From positions 186,001-250,000 of the forward strand of contig NZ_LIPG01000007.1 in assembly GCF_001905505.1 (NCBI RefSeq): 64,000 nt of DNA. The letters are read 5' to 3'. Each line of letters begins with the position of its first letter. Within the stretch, counting starts at the first letter, position 1. The notes under the pieces are model-generated. The model saw only the letters and a program-made list of their open reading frames with translations. It had not been told where the DNA came from and did not search any database. The translations under genes were made by a program, and so were the position numbers. Shown piece by piece: positions 8,732-64,000 of this stretch. The stretch comes from Streptomyces sp. CB02058. GTDB taxonomy: Bacteria; Actinomycetota; Actinomycetes; Streptomycetales; Streptomycetaceae.

Positions 8732-9847
8732 CTACGGAGCGGGAAGCTCCACGAGCCCGGCGATCGTCTCGCGGTGGCGCCCCGCCGTGCCGTACGCGAT
8801 CGAGTCGGCCTTGGCCCGCTTCAGATAGAGGTGGGCGGGGTGCTCCCAGGTCATGCCGATCCCGCCGTGCAGCTGGACGCACTCCTCCGCCGCGTGCACC
8901 GCGACCCTGGAGCAGTACGCCTGGGCCACGGCCACCGCGAGCGGCGCGTCCGGGCTGCCGGTCGCCAGAGCGTCCGCCGCGTTGCGGGCGGCGGCTCGCG
9001 CGGAGACGACCTCCAGCCAGAGCTGGGCCATCCGGTGCTTGAGCGACTGGAAGGAGCCCACCGGCCGGTTGAACTGGTGGCGTTCGCGGGTGTGCCTCAC
9101 GGTCTCGGTCAGGCACCACTCGGCGAGCCCGAGCTGCTCGGAGGCGAGCAGTCCCGCACCGGCGAGCAGGCCCCGCGCGACGGCCTCGGCCGCGGGCCCG
9201 GCCCCGGCGAGAAGGGTTCCGGTCGCCCCGTCGAGGGTGACCTCCGCGAGCGGACGGGTGAGGTCCAGCGGGACCAGCGGCTGGACGGTGACTCCCTCGC
9301 CGCCGGTCTCCACCGCGTACAGGCCGTCCGATGCGGGCACGAGCAGCACGTCGGCCACGGCCGCCTCGGCGACCCCGGTCACGGTCCTGTCGAGGGTCCC
9401 GGTGAACGCCGCTGCCGCGTCGGCCGCCGGTGCGGCGAAGGGCAGGGCGAGGACGGCGATCTTGCGGCCCGCGGCCAGCTCGCCGAGGAGATCCGCGACC
9501 GGGCCGTCCCCCGCGCCGAGCGCGAGGAGGATCTCGGTGGCGACGACGGAACTCGTCAGGTAGGGCGCGGGGGCGACGCTGCGCCCCAGCTCCTCCAGGA
9601 CGACCGCGGCCTCGCGGTGGCCGGCACCCTGGCCGCCGAGCTTCTCCGGCACCAGCAGTCCCGCCGCCCCGATCCCAGTCGCGAGCGACTCCCACAAGCG
9701 CAGGTCGTACGGTGTGTCGGACTCGATCCCCGCGATGACCGTCGGCGCGTCGGCCCGGTCGGCGAGCAGCGAGCGCACGGCGGACCTGAGGTCCTCCTCG
9801 GTCTCCGAGTAGAGCAGGTCGGGTGCGGCTTCGGGCTGTGCGGTCAT
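8732..9847 (-). CDS. Acyl-CoA dehydrogenase, second subunit
   Basis: The 371-residue protein has the acyl-CoA dehydrogenase fold: helical N-terminal domain (GAAGLLVPEKLGGQGAGHREAAVVLEELG), small beta middle domain, and C-terminal helices with FQSLKHRMAQLWLEV and LHGGIGMTWEHPAHLYLKRA. The HGGIGMTWE loop is typical of the partner subunit in heteromeric mycobacterial and actinobacterial FadE pairs. It overlaps the upstream dehydrogenase gene by 4 bp (ATGA), which supports a heterotetramer. The substrate is unknown; beta-oxidation of a bulky or branched acyl-CoA is a reasonable inference. Confidence 0.85.
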   Translation of the reverse strand: MTAQPEAAPDLLYSETEEDLRSAVRSLLADRADAPTVIAGIESDTPYDLRLWESLATGIGAAGLLVPEKLGGQGAGHREAAVVLEELGRSVAPAPYLTSSVVATEILLALGAGDGPVADLLGELAAGRKIAVLALPFAAPAADAAAAFTGTLDRTVTGVAEAAVADVLLVPASDGLYAVETGGEGVTVQPLVPLDLTRPLAEVTLDGATGTLLAGAGPAAEAVARGLLAGAGLLASEQLGLAEWCLTETVRHTRERHQFNRPVGSFQSLKHRMAQLWLEVVSARAAARNAADALATGSPDAPLAVAVAQAYCSRVAVHAAEECVQLHGGIGMTWEHPAHLYLKRAKADSIAYGTAGRHRETIAGLVELPAP

Positions 9848-11034
9848 CGGGCGAGATCCTTCCAGGCGACGTCCTTGTCGTTACGCGGCTCGACGGGCAG
9901 ACCGAGGACGCGCTCGGCGACGATGTTGAGCAGCACCTCGCTCGTACCGCCCTCGATGGAGTTGCCCTTGGACCGCAGGTAGCGGTAACCGGCGTCGCGT
10001 CCGGTGAAGTCGACGAGCTCGGGGCGGCGCATCGTCCAGTCGCTGTACAACAGGCCTTCGTCGCCGAGGAGTTCGACTTCGAGGCCGCTGATCTCCTGGT
10101 TGAGGCGGGCGAACGCGAGCTTCATGCCGGAGCCTTCGGGGCCGGGCTGCCCCGCGACGAGCTGCTGGCGCAGCCGCTCGCCGGTGAGCCGGGCGACCTC
10201 GGCCTCGACCCAGAGCGTGAGCAGCCGCTGGTGGAGGTCGTGGGTGCGCAGCGCGGGCTGTTCGCGCCAGGTCTTCGCGACGGTGCCGATCATGCCGCCC
10301 TCACGGGGGATGCGGGCTCCGCCGATCGAGACGCGCTCGTTCATCAGGGTGGTCTGGGCGACCTTCCAGCCGTCGCCGACCGGGCCGAGCCGCCTGCTGT
10401 CCGGGATGCGTACGCCGGTGAGGAAGACCTCGTTGAACTCGGCCTCGCCGGTGATCTGGCGCAGCGGCCGGACCTCGACGCCCGGGTCGCTCATGTCACA
10501 GATGAAGTAGCTGATGCCGCGGTGCTTGGGGACGTCCGGGTCGGTGCGGGCGATGAGGATCGCCCAGCGGGCCACGTGCGCGCTGGACGTCCAGACCTTC
10601 TGCCCGTCGACCACCCAGTCGTCGCCGTCCCTCACGGCACGCGTGCCCAGTGCGGCGAGGTCGGAGCCCGCGCCGGGCTCGCTGAAGAGCTGGCACCACA
10701 CCTCGTCGCCCACCCAGAGCGGGCGCAGGAAGCGCTGCTTCTGCTCGTCGGTGCCGTATCCCAGGATGGTCGGGGCCGCCATGCCGAGACCGATGCCGAT
10801 GCGGCGCGGGTCGTTGTCGGGGGCTCCGGCGGCCGCGAGTTCGGCGTCGACGACGGGCTGGAGGGAGCGCGGCGCGTCCAGGCCGCCGAGCCCCGCCGGG
10901 TAGTGCACCCAGGCGAGCCCGGCGTCGAAGCGCGCCTCGAGGAAGTCGCTGCGGCCGGTCGTGGCCGGCGGGTGGGCGGCCAGCAGCTCCTGGGTGAGCT
11001 CGCGGATCTTCGCCGCGTCGAGGGCGGTGCTCAT
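9844..11034 (-). CDS. Acyl-CoA dehydrogenase, first subunit
   Basis: The 396-residue protein shows standard acyl-CoA dehydrogenase landmarks: WVHYPAGLGGLDAPRSL, the FAD-binding stretch WCQLFSEPGAGSDLAAL near residue 125, VVDGQKVWTSSAHVARW, and the C-terminal SIEGGTSEVLLNIVAERVLGLP, where GGTSE contacts FAD. An AGGAGGA site precedes the ATG at 11034. It overlaps both neighbours by 4 bp (ATGA), so the three genes form one translationally coupled operon. It is most likely the partner of the protein at 8732. Confidence 0.87.
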   Translation of the reverse strand: MSTALDAAKIRELTQELLAAHPPATTGRSDFLEARFDAGLAWVHYPAGLGGLDAPRSLQPVVDAELAAAGAPDNDPRRIGIGLGMAAPTILGYGTDEQKQRFLRPLWVGDEVWCQLFSEPGAGSDLAALGTRAVRDGDDWVVDGQKVWTSSAHVARWAILIARTDPDVPKHRGISYFICDMSDPGVEVRPLRQITGEAEFNEVFLTGVRIPDSRRLGPVGDGWKVAQTTLMNERVSIGGARIPREGGMIGTVAKTWREQPALRTHDLHQRLLTLWVEAEVARLTGERLRQQLVAGQPGPEGSGMKLAFARLNQEISGLEVELLGDEGLLYSDWTMRRPELVDFTGRDAGYRYLRSKGNSIEGGTSEVLLNIVAERVLGLPVEPRNDKDVAWKDLAR

Positions 11035-53968: not shown

Positions 53969-53987
53969 TTAGGTTAGGGTAACCTAA
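53969..53987 (+). promoter_or_regulatory. Iron box (DmdR1/IdeR site) upstream of the isochorismatase-like gene
   Basis: TTAGGTTAGGGTAACCTAA matches the actinobacterial iron-box consensus TTAGGTTAGGCTAACCTAA at 18 of 19 positions. It lies 55 bp before the ATG at 54043, so the isochorismatase-like/argB unit should be repressed when iron is sufficient. Confidence 0.85.
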
Positions 53988-54042: not shown

Positions 54043-54696
54043 ATGAACATGCCCTCCCTCGGTTCCTATCCGATGCCCGACCGCACCGCCCTCCCCCGGA
54101 CCCACGTCAGCTGGACCGCCGATCCGGCACGCGCCGTGCTACTGGTCCACACCATGCAGAACCACTTCGTCGGCGCGTTCCGGCGGGGTTTCTCCCCCGT
54201 CACCGAGCTCGTCGACAACATCGCATCGCTGCGGCACACCGCACGGACCCTCGGCATCCCCGTCGTCTTCACCGCGGAGCCCGCCGGGCAGCCACCGCAC
54301 CGGCGCGGGCTCGTCGCCGACGTGTGGGGGCCCGGCATCGAGGACGGACCGGCCGCCGCGATCATCGCGCCCCTCGCGCCCCGCCCCGGCGAGCATCTGC
54401 TGCCGAGCACCCGTCACAACGCCTTCCTCGGCAGCCATCTCGGCACTCTGCTGCGTTCGGGCAACCGTGACCAGCTGATCGTCTGCGGGGTCCACGCCCA
54501 CCTGGGGGTCCTGCTCACCGCGGCGGACGCCTTCATGCACGACATACAGCCGTTCGTCGTCGCGGACGCGGTGGCCGACCTCTCCGCCGAGGACCATGCC
54601 ATGGCCCTTCGCTGGGTCGCGCGCAGCGGCACGGTCCGCCTGACGGACTCCCTGGTGCGGGAACTCCGCGCGCGTGACAGGACGAAGAACACGTGA
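54043..54696 (+). CDS. Isochorismatase-like protein with altered active site
   Basis: The 217-residue protein aligns with isochorismatases of catechol siderophore pathways: SWTADPARAVLLVHTMQNHFVGAF, VTELVDNIASLRHTARTLGIPVVFTAEP, LPSTRHNAFLGSHLGTLLRSGNRDQLIVCGVHAHLGVLLTAADAFMHDIQPFVVADAVAD (span near residues 120-180). The catalytic Asp of VHDMQ is Thr here (VHTMQ) and the Lys of TKWRYSAF is replaced (PSTRHNAF). No aryl carrier domain is fused and no other DHB genes are seen. It may be inactive or do another reaction. An iron box controls it. Confidence 0.8.
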   Translation: MNMPSLGSYPMPDRTALPRTHVSWTADPARAVLLVHTMQNHFVGAFRRGFSPVTELVDNIASLRHTARTLGIPVVFTAEPAGQPPHRRGLVADVWGPGIEDGPAAAIIAPLAPRPGEHLLPSTRHNAFLGSHLGTLLRSGNRDQLIVCGVHAHLGVLLTAADAFMHDIQPFVVADAVADLSAEDHAMALRWVARSGTVRLTDSLVRELRARDRTKNT

Positions 54697-54781: not shown

Positions 54782-55711
54782 ATGAGACCGAGACCGCTCG
54801 TCACGGAACGCGAGGACGCCGATCCGTCCGCCGGGCCACCCGGCCCGCGCGGCGCCACCGTCGTCGTCAAGTTCGGCGGCAACGCCATGGTCGACGCGGC
54901 CCTCCAACGGACCTTCGCCCACGACGTGGTGGAGCTGTGGCGCACGGGCCTGCGCCCCGTCGTGGTGCACGGCGGCGGTCCCCAGATCAACACGATGCTC
55001 GACCGCCTGAGCCTGGAGAGCCGCTTCGAGGCGGGTCTGCGGGTGACCACACCGGAGACCATGCAGGTGGTTCGCATGGTGCTCACGGGCGGGGTCCAGC
55101 GTGAACTGGTCGGCCACATCAACAGCCACGGTCCGTTCGCGGTGGGGATGACCGGCGAGGACGCGCACACGATGACGGCGGTGCGACGTCCGGCCTGGGT
55201 TGACGGGCGGCCCGTGGACATCGGCCTCGTCGGCGACGTCGTGGACGTGAACCCGGGCATGCTGCGCACGCTCCTGGAACAGGGGCACATCCCCGTGGTC
55301 TCCCCTGTCGCCCGCGGCGAGGACGGGCAGGTCTACAACGTCAACGCCGATCTCGCCGCGTCCGCACTGGCCGTGGCGCTCGGCGCCGAGCGGCTCGTGA
55401 TGCTCACCGATGTGGAGGGGCTGTACGCGGACTGGCCGCGCAGCACCGAGGTGATCGAGCGGCTGACCGCCGACGCGCTGCACACGCTCCTGCCGGGGCT
55501 GGCGAGCGGCATGCTGCCCAAGATGGAGGGCTGCCTACGGGCCGTCAGGGGCGGTGTGCGCCGGGCGCACGTGCTGGACGGCCGTGTGCCGCACGCGGTG
55601 CTGCGCGGCGTTCTCGACGAGGTCAGCCCCGGCACCACCGTGGTGCCCGGCCGCGTCGAGGACCAGGAAAGCGGGGCGGCGCGCCTCGCACCCGCCGCGG
55701 GCCGCGGCTGA
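54782..55711 (+). CDS. argB: Acetylglutamate kinase in siderophore locus
   Basis: The 309-residue kinase phosphorylates N-acetylglutamate, the second step to ornithine. Family motifs are [12 protein letters not shown] near residue 28, [25 protein letters not shown] near 50, [46 protein letters not shown] near 185, [14 protein letters not shown], and [27 protein letters not shown], the C-terminal Lys loop. The usual streptomycete argB sits in an arg cluster, so this is probably an extra copy. Its operon has an iron box and adjoins a hydroxyornithine-using NRPS, implying extra ornithine under iron limitation. Confidence 0.92.
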
Positions 55712-55763: not shown

Positions 55764-55805
55764 GGCGCTGTGAGCGCGGGTCGCCCGGCCCGCTCTCACA
55801 GCGCC
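55764..55805. terminator. Bidirectional hairpin between argB and the GNAT gene
   Basis: A stem of 16 pairs with one mismatch (GGCGCTGTGAG plus GCGGG on the left) and an 8-nt loop lies between converging stops and overlaps the last codons of the GNAT gene. Confidence 0.7.
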
Positions 55806-56317
55806 AGCGCGAGCACCCGTGCGTTGCGGCGCGGGTCCAGGGAATCGGCCCAGGACGGGGGCGCCGACCCCACGTGCACGGGCGTGAAGCCATGGCGCAG
55901 GAACAGCGCGCCGTCCCCGGTCGTGGCCGTGAACAGCCCGGTGAGCGCCTGGGCGCCGGCCATGGCCAGCGCGGTGCGCAGGAGCCCGCCTCCCACCCCG
56001 CGCCCCTGTCTGTGGCCCGCCACACAGAAGTTGTAGAGGACACCCGCGGAGCCCGCGCCGTCCACCGCCCCCGCCGGATACGTCCGCAGGCCCACGCAGC
56101 CTTCGAGGGCGCCGCCGGGCGCCTGCGCCACGAGGAAGTCGGCCGCGTGGCGGGCGTAGTGTGAGGCGGGCCGGTCCCGGAGCGCCCCGGAGCGTACGAA
56201 CGGCCACGCCAGGCCGGCGAGTGCGGCAGCGTCCGCCTCACGGGCCGGGCGGAGCAGGGGTGCCGGCGCGAGCCGCCCGTGGCGTACCGGGGCAGGGCCC
56301 GGCGTGACCGTGATCAA
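55796..56317 (-). CDS. GNAT acetyltransferase, ArgA/NAGS-like
   Basis: The 173-residue protein has the GNAT acetyl-CoA loop HRQGRGVGGGLLRTALAMAGAQALTG near residues 105-130 and the tail GDGALFLRHGFTPVHVG, a layout like the short actinobacterial N-acetylglutamate synthases (ArgA). It starts at TTG 56317, fixed by GAAGAGGA 7 nt upstream. It lies 48 bp behind mbtH and shares its iron box. NAG synthesis is the first ornithine step and pairs logically with argB next door. A general small-molecule acetyltransferase cannot be excluded. Confidence 0.72.
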   Translation of the reverse strand: MITVTPGPAPVRHGRLAPAPLLRPAREADAAALAGLAWPFVRSGALRDRPASHYARHAADFLVAQAPGGALEGCVGLRTYPAGAVDGAGSAGVLYNFCVAGHRQGRGVGGGLLRTALAMAGAQALTGLFTATTGDGALFLRHGFTPVHVGSAPPSWADSLDPRRNARVLALAL

Positions 56318-56365: not shown

Positions 56366-56578
56366 TCAGGCCTCCAACGGCCCGGCGAGGGACCGGGGGC
56401 GCAGATCGGTCCAGTGGGTCTCGACGAAGTCCAGGCACGCCTCGCGTGTGTTCTCCTCGAGGACGGTCCTCCACCCTCCGGGCACCTCGGCGAAGGACGG
56501 CCAGAGCGAGTGCTGGCCCTCGTCGTTCACCAGGACCAGGAAGCGGCCTTCGGGGTCGTCGAAGGGGTTGGTGCTCAT
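56366..56578 (-). CDS. cchK: MbtH-like NRPS accessory protein
   Basis: The 70-residue protein has the MbtH signature: [36 protein letters not shown] (residues 1-36) with the conserved Trp residues, and [11 protein letters not shown]. MbtH proteins bind NRPS adenylation domains and support their folding and activity. Together with the NRPS, exporter and esterase this matches the gene set of the coelichelin cluster (cchH-I-J-K). An iron box lies about 100 bp upstream. Confidence 0.92.
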
Positions 56579-56679: not shown

Positions 56680-56698
56680 TTAGGTTAGGCTCGCCTAA
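56680..56698. promoter_or_regulatory. Iron box between divergent mbtH and esterase units
   Basis: TTAGGTTAGGCTCGCCTAA differs from the iron-box consensus at two positions in the right arm. It lies between the leftward mbtH-GNAT unit and the rightward esterase unit, so one DmdR1/IdeR site can control both. Confidence 0.85.
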
Positions 56699-56835: not shown

Positions 56836-57947
56836 CGGCGCCCTCCGCAGGAGTAGAGCACGCCTTCGAGGCGTTCGGACTGTCCGGTGAGCCCGGCACC
56901 GACGCGTTCTGGACGGCGGCGCGGACACCCGCGTCGAGGCCCGTCGAGGACGGGGGCTGGGTGACGCTGTTCCTGTGGCGCGGGTCGCCCGCGAGCATCG
57001 GCTTCGAGAGCTGGTCGGACCCCGTGCCCCTGCGCCGGTGGGGCGCCACGGACTGCTGGTACGCCGAGGTGCCCATGCCGGCGCGGCTGCGGGTGACCTA
57101 TCAGTTCCTCGATGACGGTGAGGCGGGCGGCGCCGCGTACGCCGACCCCCTCAACCCGGCGGGTGCGGGCGGTGACCGCTCCCTCGCGGCGACGCCGGAC
57201 GCCCCGCCGCAGCCGCACTGGCCGGCGGTCGGTCCCGACGACGTGCTGCCCCTCCCCCGCACCCGTGTCCGCTGGGCGAGCGAGCGGCTCGGCGGGCGGC
57301 GCACCGTGCGGGTGCATCCGGCGGGCGGCGGCGGGCCGGTGGTCCTGCTGCTCGACGGGGACGACTGGCTGTATCTCCATCCGGCCATGGCCGCGTTCGA
57401 CTCGGCCGTCGCCGCCGGTGATCTGCCTCCGGTCACCCTCGTCTTCCTCCCGGCCAAGGACAGGGAGGCCGAGTTCGCGTGCCGGCCGGAGCTCTGGGAG
57501 GCGGTCCGGGACGAACTGCCGCCGCTGGTCGCGGAGTCCGGAGTCCTCGCCGACTGGGACAAGCTGGTGGTCGCCGGGCAGAGCCTCGGCGGGCTGAGCG
57601 CGCTGTACGCGGCGCTGGAGTTCCCGGACCTGGTGTCCCGTGTCGCCTGTCAGTCGCCCTCGCTGTGGTGGGAGCCCGGGGCCCCGGAACGGCCCGACCC
57701 GCTGGGCGGTCCGGCCGGTGGCGCCCTCGCCGCACGTCTGCGGGAGCACCCCGGCCTGTCCGGGCTCCGGGTCGCGTTCGACGTGGGGGAACACGAGACG
57801 CGGATGCTGCCCCACTGCGAGGCGGCCGAGGCCCTGGCCCGGGAGGCCGGTGCGACGGTGCGGGTCTCCCGGTCGCCGTCCGGGCACGACCGGGCCGGCT
57901 GGCGGCACGCCCTGCTCAGGGATGTCGCCTGGGCGCTGGATCAGTAG
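56832..57947 (+). CDS. cchJ: Siderophore esterase, enterochelin esterase (Fes/CchJ)-like
   Basis: The 371-residue hydrolase has the N-terminal Fes beta domain (TDAFWTAARTP, VTLFLWRGSPASIGFESWSDPVPLRRW, CWYAEVPMPARLRVTYQFLDDG) and a C-terminal D-type esterase fold: VVLLLDGDDWLYLHP, VFLPAKDREAEFACRPELW, nucleophile VVAGQSLGGLSALYAAL near residue 255, and the late His in SGHDRAGWRHAL. In the coelichelin cluster the corresponding CchJ is thought to help release product from a synthetase lacking a thioesterase; iron release is the alternative. It converges on the exporter gene with a 1-bp gap. Confidence 0.88.
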   Translation: MTAPSAGVEHAFEAFGLSGEPGTDAFWTAARTPASRPVEDGGWVTLFLWRGSPASIGFESWSDPVPLRRWGATDCWYAEVPMPARLRVTYQFLDDGEAGGAAYADPLNPAGAGGDRSLAATPDAPPQPHWPAVGPDDVLPLPRTRVRWASERLGGRRTVRVHPAGGGGPVVLLLDGDDWLYLHPAMAAFDSAVAAGDLPPVTLVFLPAKDREAEFACRPELWEAVRDELPPLVAESGVLADWDKLVVAGQSLGGLSALYAALEFPDLVSRVACQSPSLWWEPGAPERPDPLGGPAGGALAARLREHPGLSGLRVAFDVGEHETRMLPHCEAAEALAREAGATVRVSRSPSGHDRAGWRHALLRDVAWALDQ

Positions 57948-57948
57948 G

Positions 57949-59649
57949 TCATCTGGCGACCGCCAGGCAGTAGTTCTCGTCGGTGGCCAGGAGGTTGCGA
58001 TGGGTGTCCTCGGCGGCGATGACGCCGTCGTCCAGCACGAGGACCCGGTCGGCGGCATCCAGGAGGGCCGGGCTGCTGGTGAGCACGACGGTGGTGCGGC
58101 CCCGGCGGAGCTGCGCGAGGTTGCGCGCGATGAGCTGTTCGGTGACCGCGTCGACCGCCGTCGTCGGGTCGCGCAGGACGAGGATGCCGGAGTCGGCCGC
58201 GAGGGCCCGGGCCAGCGAGAGCCGCTGGCGCTGGCCGCCGGAGAGGTTCGCGCCCCGGTCGCGCACGGCGTGGTCGAGCCCCTCGCGGTGGAGGGCCACG
58301 ACATCGGTCAGCAGTGAGGCCTCCACGGCTTCGGGGAGGATGCGGCTGGTGCCCGACGGATCGATGTTGGTGCGGAGACTGCCCGCGAAGATCTCCCCGT
58401 CGTACGGGTTCACCAGCATGTGTTCGCGCAGCGCCTCGATCGAGAGGTCCGTGATCTCCCGGCCGCCGATCCGCACCACTCCCTCGTAGTCCTGCGGCGG
58501 GACGTTCACCGCCAGGATCGACGCGAGGTCGGCCGCCGCGCGGGGCTGGTAGGCGGCGATGGCCACGAACTCGCCGGCGCGCACCTGGAACTTCAGCTCG
58601 CGCAGCGCCCCGTACCGCACACCGTCGATCTCCAGTTCCCCGTCCCCGGACGGGCTCTGTGTGCCCGGGGCCGTCAGCGGTGGTGCGGCGAGCACCAGGG
58701 CCATCCGCTCGGCCGAGGCGCGCGCCATCATCACGTACTTCGGCATCTCCGAGAACATCTTCAGGGGTTCCATGATGAACTGCGCCAGGCCCACGGCCAT
58801 GACGAGCTCCCCGATGTTGATCCGGCCTCCGTACGCCAGCCAGCCGGCGGTCAGGGTCACGGCGGCGGCGAGCACCGCGTTGAGGGCCAGGGCGGTGCCG
58901 GCGTACACGCCGTTCACCCGGGCGACGGTGATCGCCTGCTGCTTCGCCTCCGTGCTGACCTTCCGGTAGGAGAGGAAGGCCGCCTGGTTGCCGCCGAAGC
59001 CGTGCAGCGGGCGCAGGCCGGTGATCAGGTCCGCGACCTTGGCTCCGGCCCGGGCGACCCTGGCCTGCTGTTCGCGGGTGCTCGAACCGATCCGCCGGGA
59101 CATCACGCTGAGGATCGACAGGATGGCGACCGTTCCGACGATCACCAGCAGACCGAGCCGGATGTCCGCGAGGCCCAGGGCGACCGACGCGACCACCACC
59201 GCGACCAGCGAGCTGATCAGCAGCGGCACGACCTCGACGATGTCGGCGGTCTGGTCGGCGTCCTCGGTGGCGATGGTCAGCACCTCGCCCGACTTCAGGT
59301 CGACGTCCCTGGCCACGGGCTGGAGTCCGCAGGCGGCGACCTTCACCCGCCAGCGGTGCGCCTCGGTCGTGTTGGCCTTCTGCAGGACGCGCATCCCGAA
59401 CCGCCACGACAGCGAGACGGTGGTGATGATCACCGCCAGCGCGCCGATCGACAGGCCGAGAGAGCCGAGGCTGCGGTCCTGCATCGTGTACTCGACGATC
59501 AGGCCCAGCGCGATCGGGAAGGCGGTCTCGCCGGCCTGGTAGAGGCCCATGAGGACGGTGCCCCGGACCACCGCGCCGGCGTTGCGGCGCAGGGCGGTCC
59601 GGAGGATGCCGGCCCCCTCCCGGGGGCCCTTGGGGTCAGGAGTTGTCAT
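57949..59649 (-). CDS. cchI: ABC exporter-like membrane protein with degenerate ATPase domain
   Basis: The 566-residue protein has six membrane segments in its first 300 residues and an NBD afterwards. The signature [18 protein letters not shown] is intact. Walker A is replaced by [16 protein letters not shown] with no GxxGxGKS. Walker B reads [13 protein letters not shown], with Arg for the Asp and Asp for the catalytic Glu, and the H-loop reads VLTSSPALL without His. ATP hydrolysis at this site looks impossible, so it may need a partner ABC protein. Its ATG lies 14 bp inside the NRPS end, matching the cchH-cchI order. Confidence 0.82.
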
Positions 59650-62600
59650 CAAGATGGCGGGCAATCGCTTCCGGGGTTCGAAGGGTGAGCAGATCACGGA
59701 TCGTGATCACAGGACCGTACTCCCGGCGGAGCAGCCCGATCAGGCGCACCGCCAGCATCGAGTGTCCTCCGAGGGAGGCGAAGTCACTGACCGCGCTCAC
59801 CTCGTCGTCGTCCAGGTCGAGTGCCTCGGCGAAGAACTCGCAGACCAGGATCTCGGTCCCGGTCTCCGGGGCGCGCTCCTCGACCATGGTCAGCACGCCG
59901 AGGGGCTTCGCCTCCGGCAGCGCCTTGGTGTCGGCCTTCCCGTTCACGGTCAGCGGGATCGCGTCGACCTGGGCGTAGTGCGTCGGGCGCAGGAAGTCCG
60001 GCAGCCCCGCGCCCGCCTCCGCGGCAACCGTGGCCAGGTCGGAGCCGTCCAGCACGAGGTAGGCGGCAAGCCGGTACGCTCCGTCGACCTGCGGGTCGGG
60101 CTGGGCGACCGCGGCGGCGAACCGCACCGCCGGATGGGCGGCGAACACGGCCTCCACCTCGCCCGGTTCGACCCGGTGGCCCCGGATCTTGACCTGCTGG
60201 TCGGTGCGGCCGAGGTACATCAGATTCCCGTCGGGCCGCCTGATCACCAGGTCCCCCGTGCGGTACATCCGCTCGCCGGGTGCGCCGAACGGGCACGCGA
60301 CGAAGCGGTGCGCGGTCTGGGCGGGCTGCCCGAGGTAGCCGCGCGCGATGCCCACGCCCGACACGTAGAGCTCACCGGGAACCCCGTCCGGCAGGGGCCT
60401 CAGCCACGGATCGAGCACGTACACCTCGGTGTTGTCGATCGCCACGCCCACCACCGGGTCCTGGCACTCGAAGGTGCCGACGCCGAGGGTGTTGATGGTG
60501 TACTCGGTGGGCCCGTACAGGTTGTAGCCGGCCGTCCCCGGGGTCTCGGCGAGCCGCTGCCACAGCTGCGGGGTGACGGCCTCACCGCCCAGCAGCACGA
60601 GCGCGGGGCGCCGTTCGGGGTCGTCGAGCAGTCCCTCGGCGACCAGCTGCTGCGCGTAGGTCGGCGTCACGTTGATGACGTCGATCCCGTGCTCGGCGCA
60701 GTACTCGACCAGACGGGGCGCGTCGCGGCGCAGTTCCTCGTCGCAGATGTGCACCTCGTGGCCGTCGGCGAGCCACAGCAGCTCCTCCCACGACATGTCG
60801 AACGCGAACGAGACGGTGTGCGCGATCCGGAAGACGCGGTGTCCGTGGTCCGCCAGCACCGGTTCGAAGATGCGGCGCTGATGGTTGATCAGCATGTTGG
60901 TGAGCCCGGCGTACTCGGTGACCACACCCTTGGGCTTCCCGGTCGATCCTGAGGTGTAGATCGTGTACGCGGGGTGCTTCAGCCGGTCCGGGTCGTCCGG
61001 GGCGAACGTCACGCGGGGTTCGGCGTCCGGCAGCGGGCGGTCGAGTTCCATGAGCTCGCCGGTCAGCCGGTGCGACACCCCGCTCACGGTGAGGATCACG
61101 TCCGGACGGGCGCTGTCGACGATCGCGGCGATCCGCTCGTCCGGGTGGTCCAGCTCCAGCGGCACATAGGCGGCGCCGACGCGGAGTACGGCGAAGAGCG
61201 CCACGATCGAGTCGAGGGAGCGCGGGATCGCGAGGGCCACGGTCCGCTCGGGGCCGATACCGCGCCGGGCGAGGACCCCGGCCACCGCCCTGCTCCGGTC
61301 ACGGAGTTCGGCGAAGGTCATGGCCGAGCCGTGGGAGACGAGGGCGGTCCGCCCCGGGTCGCGGTCGGCCGCCAGGTCGAAACGGTCGACGACCGTGTCC
61401 GTGCCGATGTCCGTGCGGGCGGCCGGCTCGGGTGCGGCCCCGAGTCCGCGCAGGGCACCGACCGGCCCGGTCGAACGGGCCAGGTCCTCCAGCACCCGCA
61501 CGTAGTCGTCGACGAGCCGGCGGGCCCTGCCGCCGTCGCCGTCGCGGTACTCCAGCTTGACCGTGAGCCGGTCTCCGGGGGTGACGACCCAGGTAAACGG
61601 ATAGTGCGTCGAGTCGTCGGCCTTCACCTCCGTGATGCCGTGCCTGGCGTTCATCTCGGCGAAGGCGTCCATGTCCAGGAAGTTCTGGAGAACGAACAGG
61701 TTGTCGAAGAGACTCTCGTGGCCGCCGGCCCGCTGGATCTCGCCGAGCCCCAGGTGCTCGTGCTCCATCGCCTCGATCCTGGCCGACTGGACGGCCGAGA
61801 GGTAGGCACGGACCGTGTCACCGGGCCGGGCCGACGTCCACAGGGGCACGGTGTTGAGCAGCACTCCGACGATGTCGGACAGCCCCTCGCCCTCGCGGCC
61901 GGAGACGGTCACGCCGAAGACGGCGTCGGAGCGGCCCGTGTGCGCGCCCAGCAGAAGGCCGAAGGCGCCGGTCAGCACCGTGTTCAGCGTGACGCCGTGC
62001 GTCCTGGCCGCGTCCCGCAGCAGTTCCGACTGTGCGGAGGACAGCTGGTGCACGAGTGCGCGCGGCAGTTCGTCCGCGAAGGCCGGCTGCGGTCCGGCCA
62101 GCAGCGTCGGGCTCGTGAGGCCGGCCAGGTGCTCCGCCCAGAAGCGCTCCGAGACGGCGGAGTCCTTGGCGTCGAGCGCCCTGGCGTACTCCTCGAAGCC
62201 GGGCGTGGCCGGGGCCGGGTCGAGTTCGCCCCCCGCGAGGACGGCCTCGTAGGCGTCGAACAGGTCCCGGAGCAGGATCTCGCGGGACCAGCCGTCCCAT
62301 AGCAGCAGGTGGTAGCTGAGCAGCAGGCCGTCGCGCCCGCCGGGCAGCCGTACGACGGTCAGCCGGACCAGCGGCGGTTCGCCCGGGTCGAAGCCCGTGT
62401 CGCGGTCCCGGGCCCGCAGGGCGTCCACGGCCTCGTCCGTCGGCAGCTCGACCGTACGGACGGCGACCCGTCGGCCCGCCTTGAGGACCTGTACGGGGTT
62501 GCCCCGGTCGTCGGTGGTGAAGCCCGCGCCCACGACGGGGTGCCGTGCGATGACGTACGCCATCGCCTCGGCCAGCGCGTCGGTGTCGAGGCGCCGGTCG

Positions 62601-64000
62601 AAGGCGAACCAGCTCTGCGCGACGTAGTGTCCGGCCGGGCCCGCCATCTGCGCCTGGAAGAACAGGCCTCGCTGGAGCGGGGTGACGGGCGCCGTGCGTT
62701 CGGCGGTCGTGGAGGCGTCCGCGAGGCGTTCGAGTGCGGCGTTCCAGTGCTCGGTCACCTCGTCGGGGATGCCGTCGGCGAGGGTGAACTCCGCGTGCAG
62801 GCTTCGGGTGGCCCCGTCGGTCCAGGCGTTGACCTCGACGGCGTACGGGCTGCCCTGGTCGCCGCCCGTGATGCGCGGCGCCCGGGACTCGTCGCCCCGG
62901 CCGAGGTAGTTGAACAGCACCTGCGGGCGGGTGCCCAGCAGCGGGGCGGTCTGCGGGTCGAGGTATCTGAGCTGCCCGTAGGCCAGGTGCCCGCGCTCGT
63001 CCGGCTGGCGCTCGGCGACCTCGCGTGCGGCCGCGAGCGGGTCGGTGTGCGCGGTGAGGCGCACGGGTGCGATGGAGGTGAACCAGCCGACGGTACGGGT
63101 GTAGTCGTGGTGTTCCAGCACCGGGACACGGCCGTGCCGCTCCAGCTCGATCGCCAGATCCGTGGGCGAGGACTGCACATGCGTCAGCGCGGTGCGCAGC
63201 GCCCCGCACAGGAGCTCGGTCAGCCCGGTCCCGAGCGCGGCGGGCGCGGTGCGCGTCAGCCGGTCGCTCGTCTCGGGGGCGAGCACGGACGTGACCGTGC
63301 GCAGGCCGCTCCCGGCCGAGGGCAGGAGCGGGGGCGCCTGGAGGGTGGTGATCCAGTGCCCGAGGCTCGCGGTGGCATGGGCGGCCCCTGAGCTGAGGGC
63401 CTCGGCGTACGCGGCGTAGGACGTGGTCGGCGCCGGCAGCGCCGCACCGCGCATCGCGGCGGCGAGGTCGTCCAGCAGGATCAGCCAGGAGACCGCGTCG
63501 ACCGCGAGGTGGTGGACGGTCACCACCAGGGTCCTGCTCGGCTCCAGCCAGGTGAACGCGATGACGTCACCGGCCTCCGGGTCGAGTCGCCCGGCGGCTT
63601 CGTTCGCGGCGGCCGTCGCGTCGGCCGTGTCCGTCCGGGCCACGGTGACCTCGCGGGCGGGACCGGTGCGCAGCGCCCACACCCCGTGCTCGACGCGCAA
63701 CTCCATCCGGAGCACCGGGTGCGCGGCCACGACGGCGTTCGCGGCGCGCACGGCGTCGGCGAACCCGGTGTCCTCGGCCGCCTCCACGGTCCTGGCCTGG
63801 GCGAACCGGGCGAGGGACGCGCCCAGTTCCCGCTGGCGCAGGATGATCGGTGACGGCGTCAGCGGGCCGTCCTCGGGGACGACGGGCCCGGGTGACGGGG
63901 CCGGGGGTGCGTCCGCCGTCAGGTGTCCGGCGAGGGCGCGCGGTGTCTTGAGGAGGAACACGTCCCGGGGCGCGATCGGCAGCCCGAGTGCCCGGGCCCG
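59636..64000 (-). CDS. cchH: Siderophore NRPS, C-terminal part (PCP-E-C-A-PCP), 5' end beyond window
   Basis: The 1454 visible residues begin in a carrier-domain tail. An epimerisation domain follows ([10 protein letters not shown] near residue 160, then FNYLGRGDE), then a condensation domain starting TPLQRGLFF near 435 with an active site [11 protein letters not shown] in which the second catalytic His is Leu. The adenylation domain ([11 protein letters not shown]) has pocket residues D-M-E-N-L-G-L-I-N, the code I recall for N5-hydroxyornithine. A final carrier domain (LGGHSMLAV) ends the protein without thioesterase. This matches the end of coelichelin synthetase CchH. Confidence 0.92.

Follow-up and report, generated by a model that had tools for sequence, protein, structure and literature searches.

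Organization of the locus

The window, which is the whole stretch of 64,000 nucleotides of Streptomyces sp. CB02058 DNA that was analysed, carries an isochorismatase-like gene beside siderophore genes. The following features were identified.

53969..53987, no strand assigned: iron box TTAGGTTAGGGTAACCTAA, found by motif scan upstream of the isochorismatase-like gene
54043..54696, + strand: gene of an isochorismatase-fold protein of 217 aa (PF00857, structure matches and AlphaFold2 model)
54782..55711, + strand: argB paralogue (N-acetylglutamate kinase) for ornithine supply (TIGR00761, E 2e-70)
55796..56317, - strand: GNAT acetyltransferase with weak similarity to the N-acetylglutamate synthase C-terminal domain, syntenic across the clade described below
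56369..56578, - strand: MbtH-like protein in the CchK position, from its reading frame and syntenic matches
56680..56698, no strand assigned: another iron box, located between mbtH and the esterase gene, found by motif scan
56904..57947, + strand: Fes/CchJ-like siderophore esterase with a putative start (the mechanical ORF begins at 56304)
57949..59697, - strand: ABC exporter in the CchI position, with an orthologue in 69/296 Streptomyces genomes
59636..64000, - strand: three-module, CchH-like NRPS, A-T-E-C-A-T-E-C-A-T, which continues past the window to coordinate 70582 (3648 aa)

The E domains of the NRPS were called by motif and by Condensation-family matches, and we take the resulting order to be the architecture of the coelichelin synthetase CchH. 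Past the window edge, a second ABC exporter, a binding protein, FecCD permease genes, an ornithine monooxygenase and a formyltransferase were found. All features by which a coelichelin-type locus was recognised were present: the ornithine monooxygenase and the formyltransferase, together with an NRPS of three modules that includes two epimerisation domains. Judged by gene content, this is a coelichelin-type hydroxamate siderophore locus with the isochorismatase-like gene at its edge. It shares with the S. coelicolor cch cluster the formyltransferase, ornithine monooxygenase, FecCD permease, binding protein, two ABC exporters, NRPS, esterase and MbtH protein, in a gene order that presumably matches cchA-K. 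However, it has an extra flank made of the isochorismatase-like protein, the argB paralogue and the GNAT protein. The argB paralogue shares 62% identity with the housekeeping copy at C11:330052, and the GNAT protein may complete a local ornithine pathway.

The iron box TTAGGTTAGGGTAACCTAA showed one mismatch to the consensus used, with zero expected in shuffles, and lies about 55 bp 5' of the gene start. We infer that the gene is iron-repressed through this box. The genes identified in the locus included no isochorismate synthase, DHB dehydrogenase or aryl-AMP ligase. The original prediction, a hydroxamate locus with an iron box ahead of the gene, argB behind it and no visible DHB genes, was thus borne out for the genes and the box; control by the box is the presumed part. 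argC, argJ, argD and an amidohydrolase gene were absent from the locus. Because relatives also carry argC, argJ and argD, most of an ornithine-supply operon has apparently been lost from this locus.

Fold and active site of the window protein

The reading frame at 54043-54696 was unbroken, and the profile search assigned the product to the Isochorismatase family with E 2e-32. Its nearest solved relative was the VibB isochorismatase domain (3tb4, phmmer E 2e-56), and S. maltophilia EntB, AngB, PhzD and E. coli EntB were also close. AlphaFold2 predicted a complete fold with pLDDT 92 and pTM 0.91. Foldseek placed this model on 3tb4 with a TM score of 0.90 and an rmsd of 1.0 Å. By fold and sequence homology, the protein belongs to the isochorismatases.

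The active site gave a different result. In enzymes of the EntB type, the ring carboxylate is bound by Gln79 and Arg88, Lys123 is located at the pyruvyl group, and Asp is the catalytic residue (PMC12210187). Pocket roles in this study follow such published residue assignments and not model coordinates, and window residue 122 corresponds to Lys123 of S. maltophilia EntB. In the alignments, VHDMQ was VHTMQ in the window protein, so that Thr37 stood where Asp37 was found in 77/77 canonical and 31/31 clade sequences. The Lys of TKWRYSAF aligned with Ser122 in LPSTRHNAF. Lys123 and Gln79, which lie at the substrate carboxylates, were replaced by Ser122 and Glu79, and further pocket residues were H125 and N126. 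The Cys-Asp-Lys triad of the isochorismatase-like cysteine hydrolases was also absent, since the Cys, Asp and Lys positions held Gly155, Thr37 and Ser122.

The protein is thus an EntB/VibB/PhzD-type domain without the isochorismatase active site (D37T, K122S, E79), as the original prediction had described for the catalytic Asp and Lys. It resembles the DhbB/EntB/VibB domain, which is single-domain in Streptomyces DhbB and S. maltophilia EntB, in fold, in 45-57% identity and in having the same Arg88, Trp95 and Gly156. It differs in the missing Asp and Lys, in the changes Gln79 to Glu, Tyr126 to His and Ser127 to Asn, and in the lack of adjoining DHB genes. PhzD, the ADIC hydrolase of phenazine synthesis, is similar in fold and single-domain size, but the window protein shows the same active-site losses against it, and no phenazine genes were identified in the locus. 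The window protein has almost certainly lost isochorismatase activity.

The same genome carries a canonical DHB cluster on contig C8 (L007 7451-15135) with DhbB, DhbC, DhbE (DHB-AMP ligase) and an EntF-like NRPS. The canonical isochorismatase of this genome reads DLQNHF and TKWKYSAF, keeps both Asp and Lys, and is 51% identical to the window protein. Therefore, DHB supply need not depend on the window protein.

A Streptomyces clade with an altered pocket

Contig-collection and genome searches found orthologues at 60-75% identity in 26/393 Streptomyces genomes, the window's own included, and the clade comprises about 40 sequences. In a sample of 294 genomes of the order, matches above the cut-off occurred only in Streptomyces. 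The clade was joined in the tree with support 100/99 and a stem of 0.4. As far as sequence can tell, it descends from the DhbB/EntB isochorismatases.

Active sites were compared between 31 clade members and 77 canonical sequences, and more members were added later. Asp, Gln and Lys were present in 77/77 canonical sequences. The clade kept Asp37 in 31/31 and had Glu79 in place of Gln79 in 31/31, whereas Lys123 was Asn in 29/31 and His in 2/31. Other switches were Trp124 to Val or Ile, Tyr126 mostly to His, Ser127 to Asn and Ile155 to Leu; Arg88, Trp95 and Gly156 were retained. Among positions conserved in canonical enzymes, 4/11 published pocket positions were switched in the clade, compared with 7/78 other positions (Fisher p 0.027). 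Purifying selection in the clade was strong, with a GY omega of 0.05-0.08. The clade pocket is best read as an old repurposing and not as decay. The AlphaFold2 model of an Asp-bearing relative (L088) had a pLDDT of 50 from a shallow alignment and was left out of the analysis.

Since the pocket residues for both isochorismate carboxylates were replaced, the clade protein most likely binds a different small ligand, and loss of isochorismatase activity is very probable for the clade as a whole. We considered whether the clade could still hydrolyse isochorismate or aminodeoxyisochorismate, with Asp37 as the acid and the Lys loss tolerated, and supply DHB for mixed catechol-hydroxamate siderophores, the window copy being a dead relict. 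The retained Asp37, Arg88, Trp95 and Gly156 fit such a role, the Lys of VibB lies 3.7 Å from the pyruvyl group (PMC12210187), and some loci have an NRPS that starts in a condensation-type domain, as in catechol-capped siderophores. However, all clade members compared carry Glu79 in place of Gln79, which makes the carboxylate site negatively charged. Some copies of the gene lie in loci of the coelichelin type, and the known product of such loci is free of catechol. Moreover, the flanks read showed no isochorismate synthase next to the clade gene, and in G226 a canonical copy with dhbC/dhbE was about 34 kb off. We regard this explanation as improbable.

A separate, divergent subclade (L107, L109 and L110) on a branch of 0.57 carried Asn for Asp37, Val for Glu79 and Glu for Trp95. 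It is still iron-boxed and adjoins argB and the ornithine monooxygenase gene; the G226 gene that lies about 34 kb from a canonical isochorismatase is of this type.

Genomic setting of the clade genes

Loci for N5-hydroxyornithine siderophores were the setting of the clade genes, usually with argB as a neighbour and often with argC, argJ and argD as well. The gene often heads an argB, argC-argJ-argB or argC-argJ-argB-argD block, which is followed by the GNAT protein and usually by an Amidohydro_3 protein and MbtH. The clade gene of L012-type loci is directly followed by the Amidohydro_3 gene, and argB lies elsewhere in the locus. An iron box stood about 70 bp upstream in nearly all members; one locus (L011/L116) had no box, and L100 had its box at -358. 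The adjoining hydroxamate NRPSs were of several kinds: coelichelin-type, one of 4.7 kaa with an initial condensation-type domain, and at least two others. Where the reading of the flanks extended far enough, the locus types contained genes for an ornithine monooxygenase and a formyltransferase.

The qinichelin NRPS cluster contains an ornithine-supply arg operon. Such operons also occur in the lunaemycin and stenothricin clusters, where argC/J/B/D lie beside ornithine-using NRPSs (PMC9866976). They differ from the loci described here, which have the isochorismatase-like gene at the head and of which the window locus retains argB alone. Since arg operons in NRPS clusters are known, the arg part is not new, and what sets these loci apart is the isochorismatase-like partner.

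In the 69 sampled Streptomyces with a CchI orthologue, 13 carried the clade gene within about 12 kb, and it was not found beside the other 56 coelichelin-type loci. The gene is thus optional there. It also tends to erode in coelichelin-type loci, to judge from the copies compared below.

The Amidohydro_3 protein (L011 15693-17276, - strand, and equivalents) was found in many hydroxamate siderophore loci and in 74/296 Streptomyces. No close copy was found in the window's genome, and G148 had a fragment. A strict link between loss of Asp and loss of this protein was rejected: G032 and G157 are without Amidohydro_3 yet keep Asp, G226, G198 and G269 have it yet carry Asn, and most of the 74 Streptomyces with it are without the clade gene.

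Changes private to the window copy

The original prediction had proposed recruitment to a new role and had asked whether Thr and Ser are conserved in close homologues. The alignment answered in the negative, because Thr37 and Ser122 were in no other homologue examined. Relatives at 60-75% identity kept Asp37 and had Asn in place of Lys. Close homologues with both Asp and Lys had been named as evidence against the proposal; Asp was indeed kept, but Lys was kept in none. The idea of recruitment survived in part. The active site is not that of an isochorismatase, the iron box is conserved and the lineage appears to have been recruited into hydroxamate loci, but Thr and Ser do not form a conserved new site. 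By these comparisons, recruitment is a property of the clade, the Asp loss is late and private to the window genome, and the Lys and Asp losses have different histories.

The uniqueness of Thr37 could also be expected from an assembly or sequencing error. However, the codon change GAC to ACC requires two substitutions, the reading frame is unbroken, and further clade-invariant or near-invariant sites changed with it: Asn to Ser (AGC), A32V, P47R and G141N. An error is extremely improbable.

The terminal branch of the window protein was 0.35 in the tree, compared with a median of 0.08. dN/dS on this branch was 0.61-0.69 (bootstrap 0.41-1.19), compared with 0.19 among four or five relatives; these values come from pairwise and three-point simple NG86 counts on one gene of 217 codons. 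The neighbours gave low values on the window branch (argB 0.19, esterase 0.28, ABC exporter 0.21, NRPS end 0.18), and the GNAT gene gave 0.38 versus 0.35. The window copy kept 80/84 clade-invariant residues and changed 4/84.

The coelichelin-linked sublineage of the window copy comprised G007, G009, G080, G148, G238, G064 and G123. Orthologues in 2/7 of these relatives were frameshifted: L161 in G064 (9788-10436) and L162 in G123 (9638-10262), with branch dN/dS of 0.45 and 0.44. In the G064 copy, Asp is also replaced by Asn and further conserved sites have changed. The frameshift of G123 is located at a G homopolymer and may reflect a sequencing error.

Erosion is the probable fate of the window copy. 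Counting against it are the unbroken frame, the high-confidence predicted fold, the 80/84 invariant residues kept, and a sound iron box and ribosome site, and elevated dN/dS can also mean adaptive change. The same intact frame and fold, the retained box and the small number of altered invariant sites would fit a new function of the window copy itself, binding or structural, with Thr37 and Ser122 as adaptive changes. However, the two residues occur in no other sequence, dN/dS is raised with no burst clearly above 1, related copies are frameshifted, and the module has shrunk at the window locus, where argC/J/D and the amidohydrolase are gone. We consider a new function of this copy unlikely.

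Proposed role

We favour, at a probability of roughly 0.6, a non-isochorismatase accessory protein of ornithine-hydroxamate loci, of which the window copy is eroding and probably catalytically dead. Low iron would release the observed box, and the gene would be expressed with the syntenic ornithine-biosynthesis and hydroxamate machinery. In the clade, the residues for the isochorismate carboxylates would have been swapped (Gln79 to Glu, Lys123 to Asn) and the pocket thereby rebuilt; the proton donor Asp37 stays, as do Arg88 and Gly156. Since Asp37 and Asn123 are gone in the window copy and selection is relaxed, it is most likely without catalytic activity, and its remaining role may be no more than residual binding within an optional accessory module.

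The clade ligand might be an amine-bearing intermediate of the ornithine/hydroxyornithine pathway; an origin in this pathway, suggested by the Glu79/Arg88 pair and the neighbouring genes, is a speculative idea that we hold to be rather unlikely. A fuller version is conceivable, though we would not expect it: the clade would use the isochorismatase fold as a new enzyme or ligand-binding protein, its conserved Asp37-Glu79-Arg88-Asn123-His126-Asn127 site would handle an amino-acid-like compound (ornithine or hydroxyornithine) in hydroxamate siderophore synthesis, and the window copy would be further derived.

The open papers searched for an isochorismatase with coelichelin, scabichelin or qinichelin contained no report of the window gene. 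The general interest lies in the Asp-bearing clade and not in the window copy. The clade would represent a siderophore enzyme fold recruited from catechol chemistry to hydroxamate loci, with a rebuilt and conserved pocket. Annotation tools will mislabel it as isochorismatase, which may prompt false predictions of catechol siderophores. The intact, altered and broken copies form a set for testing the role of the accessory module.
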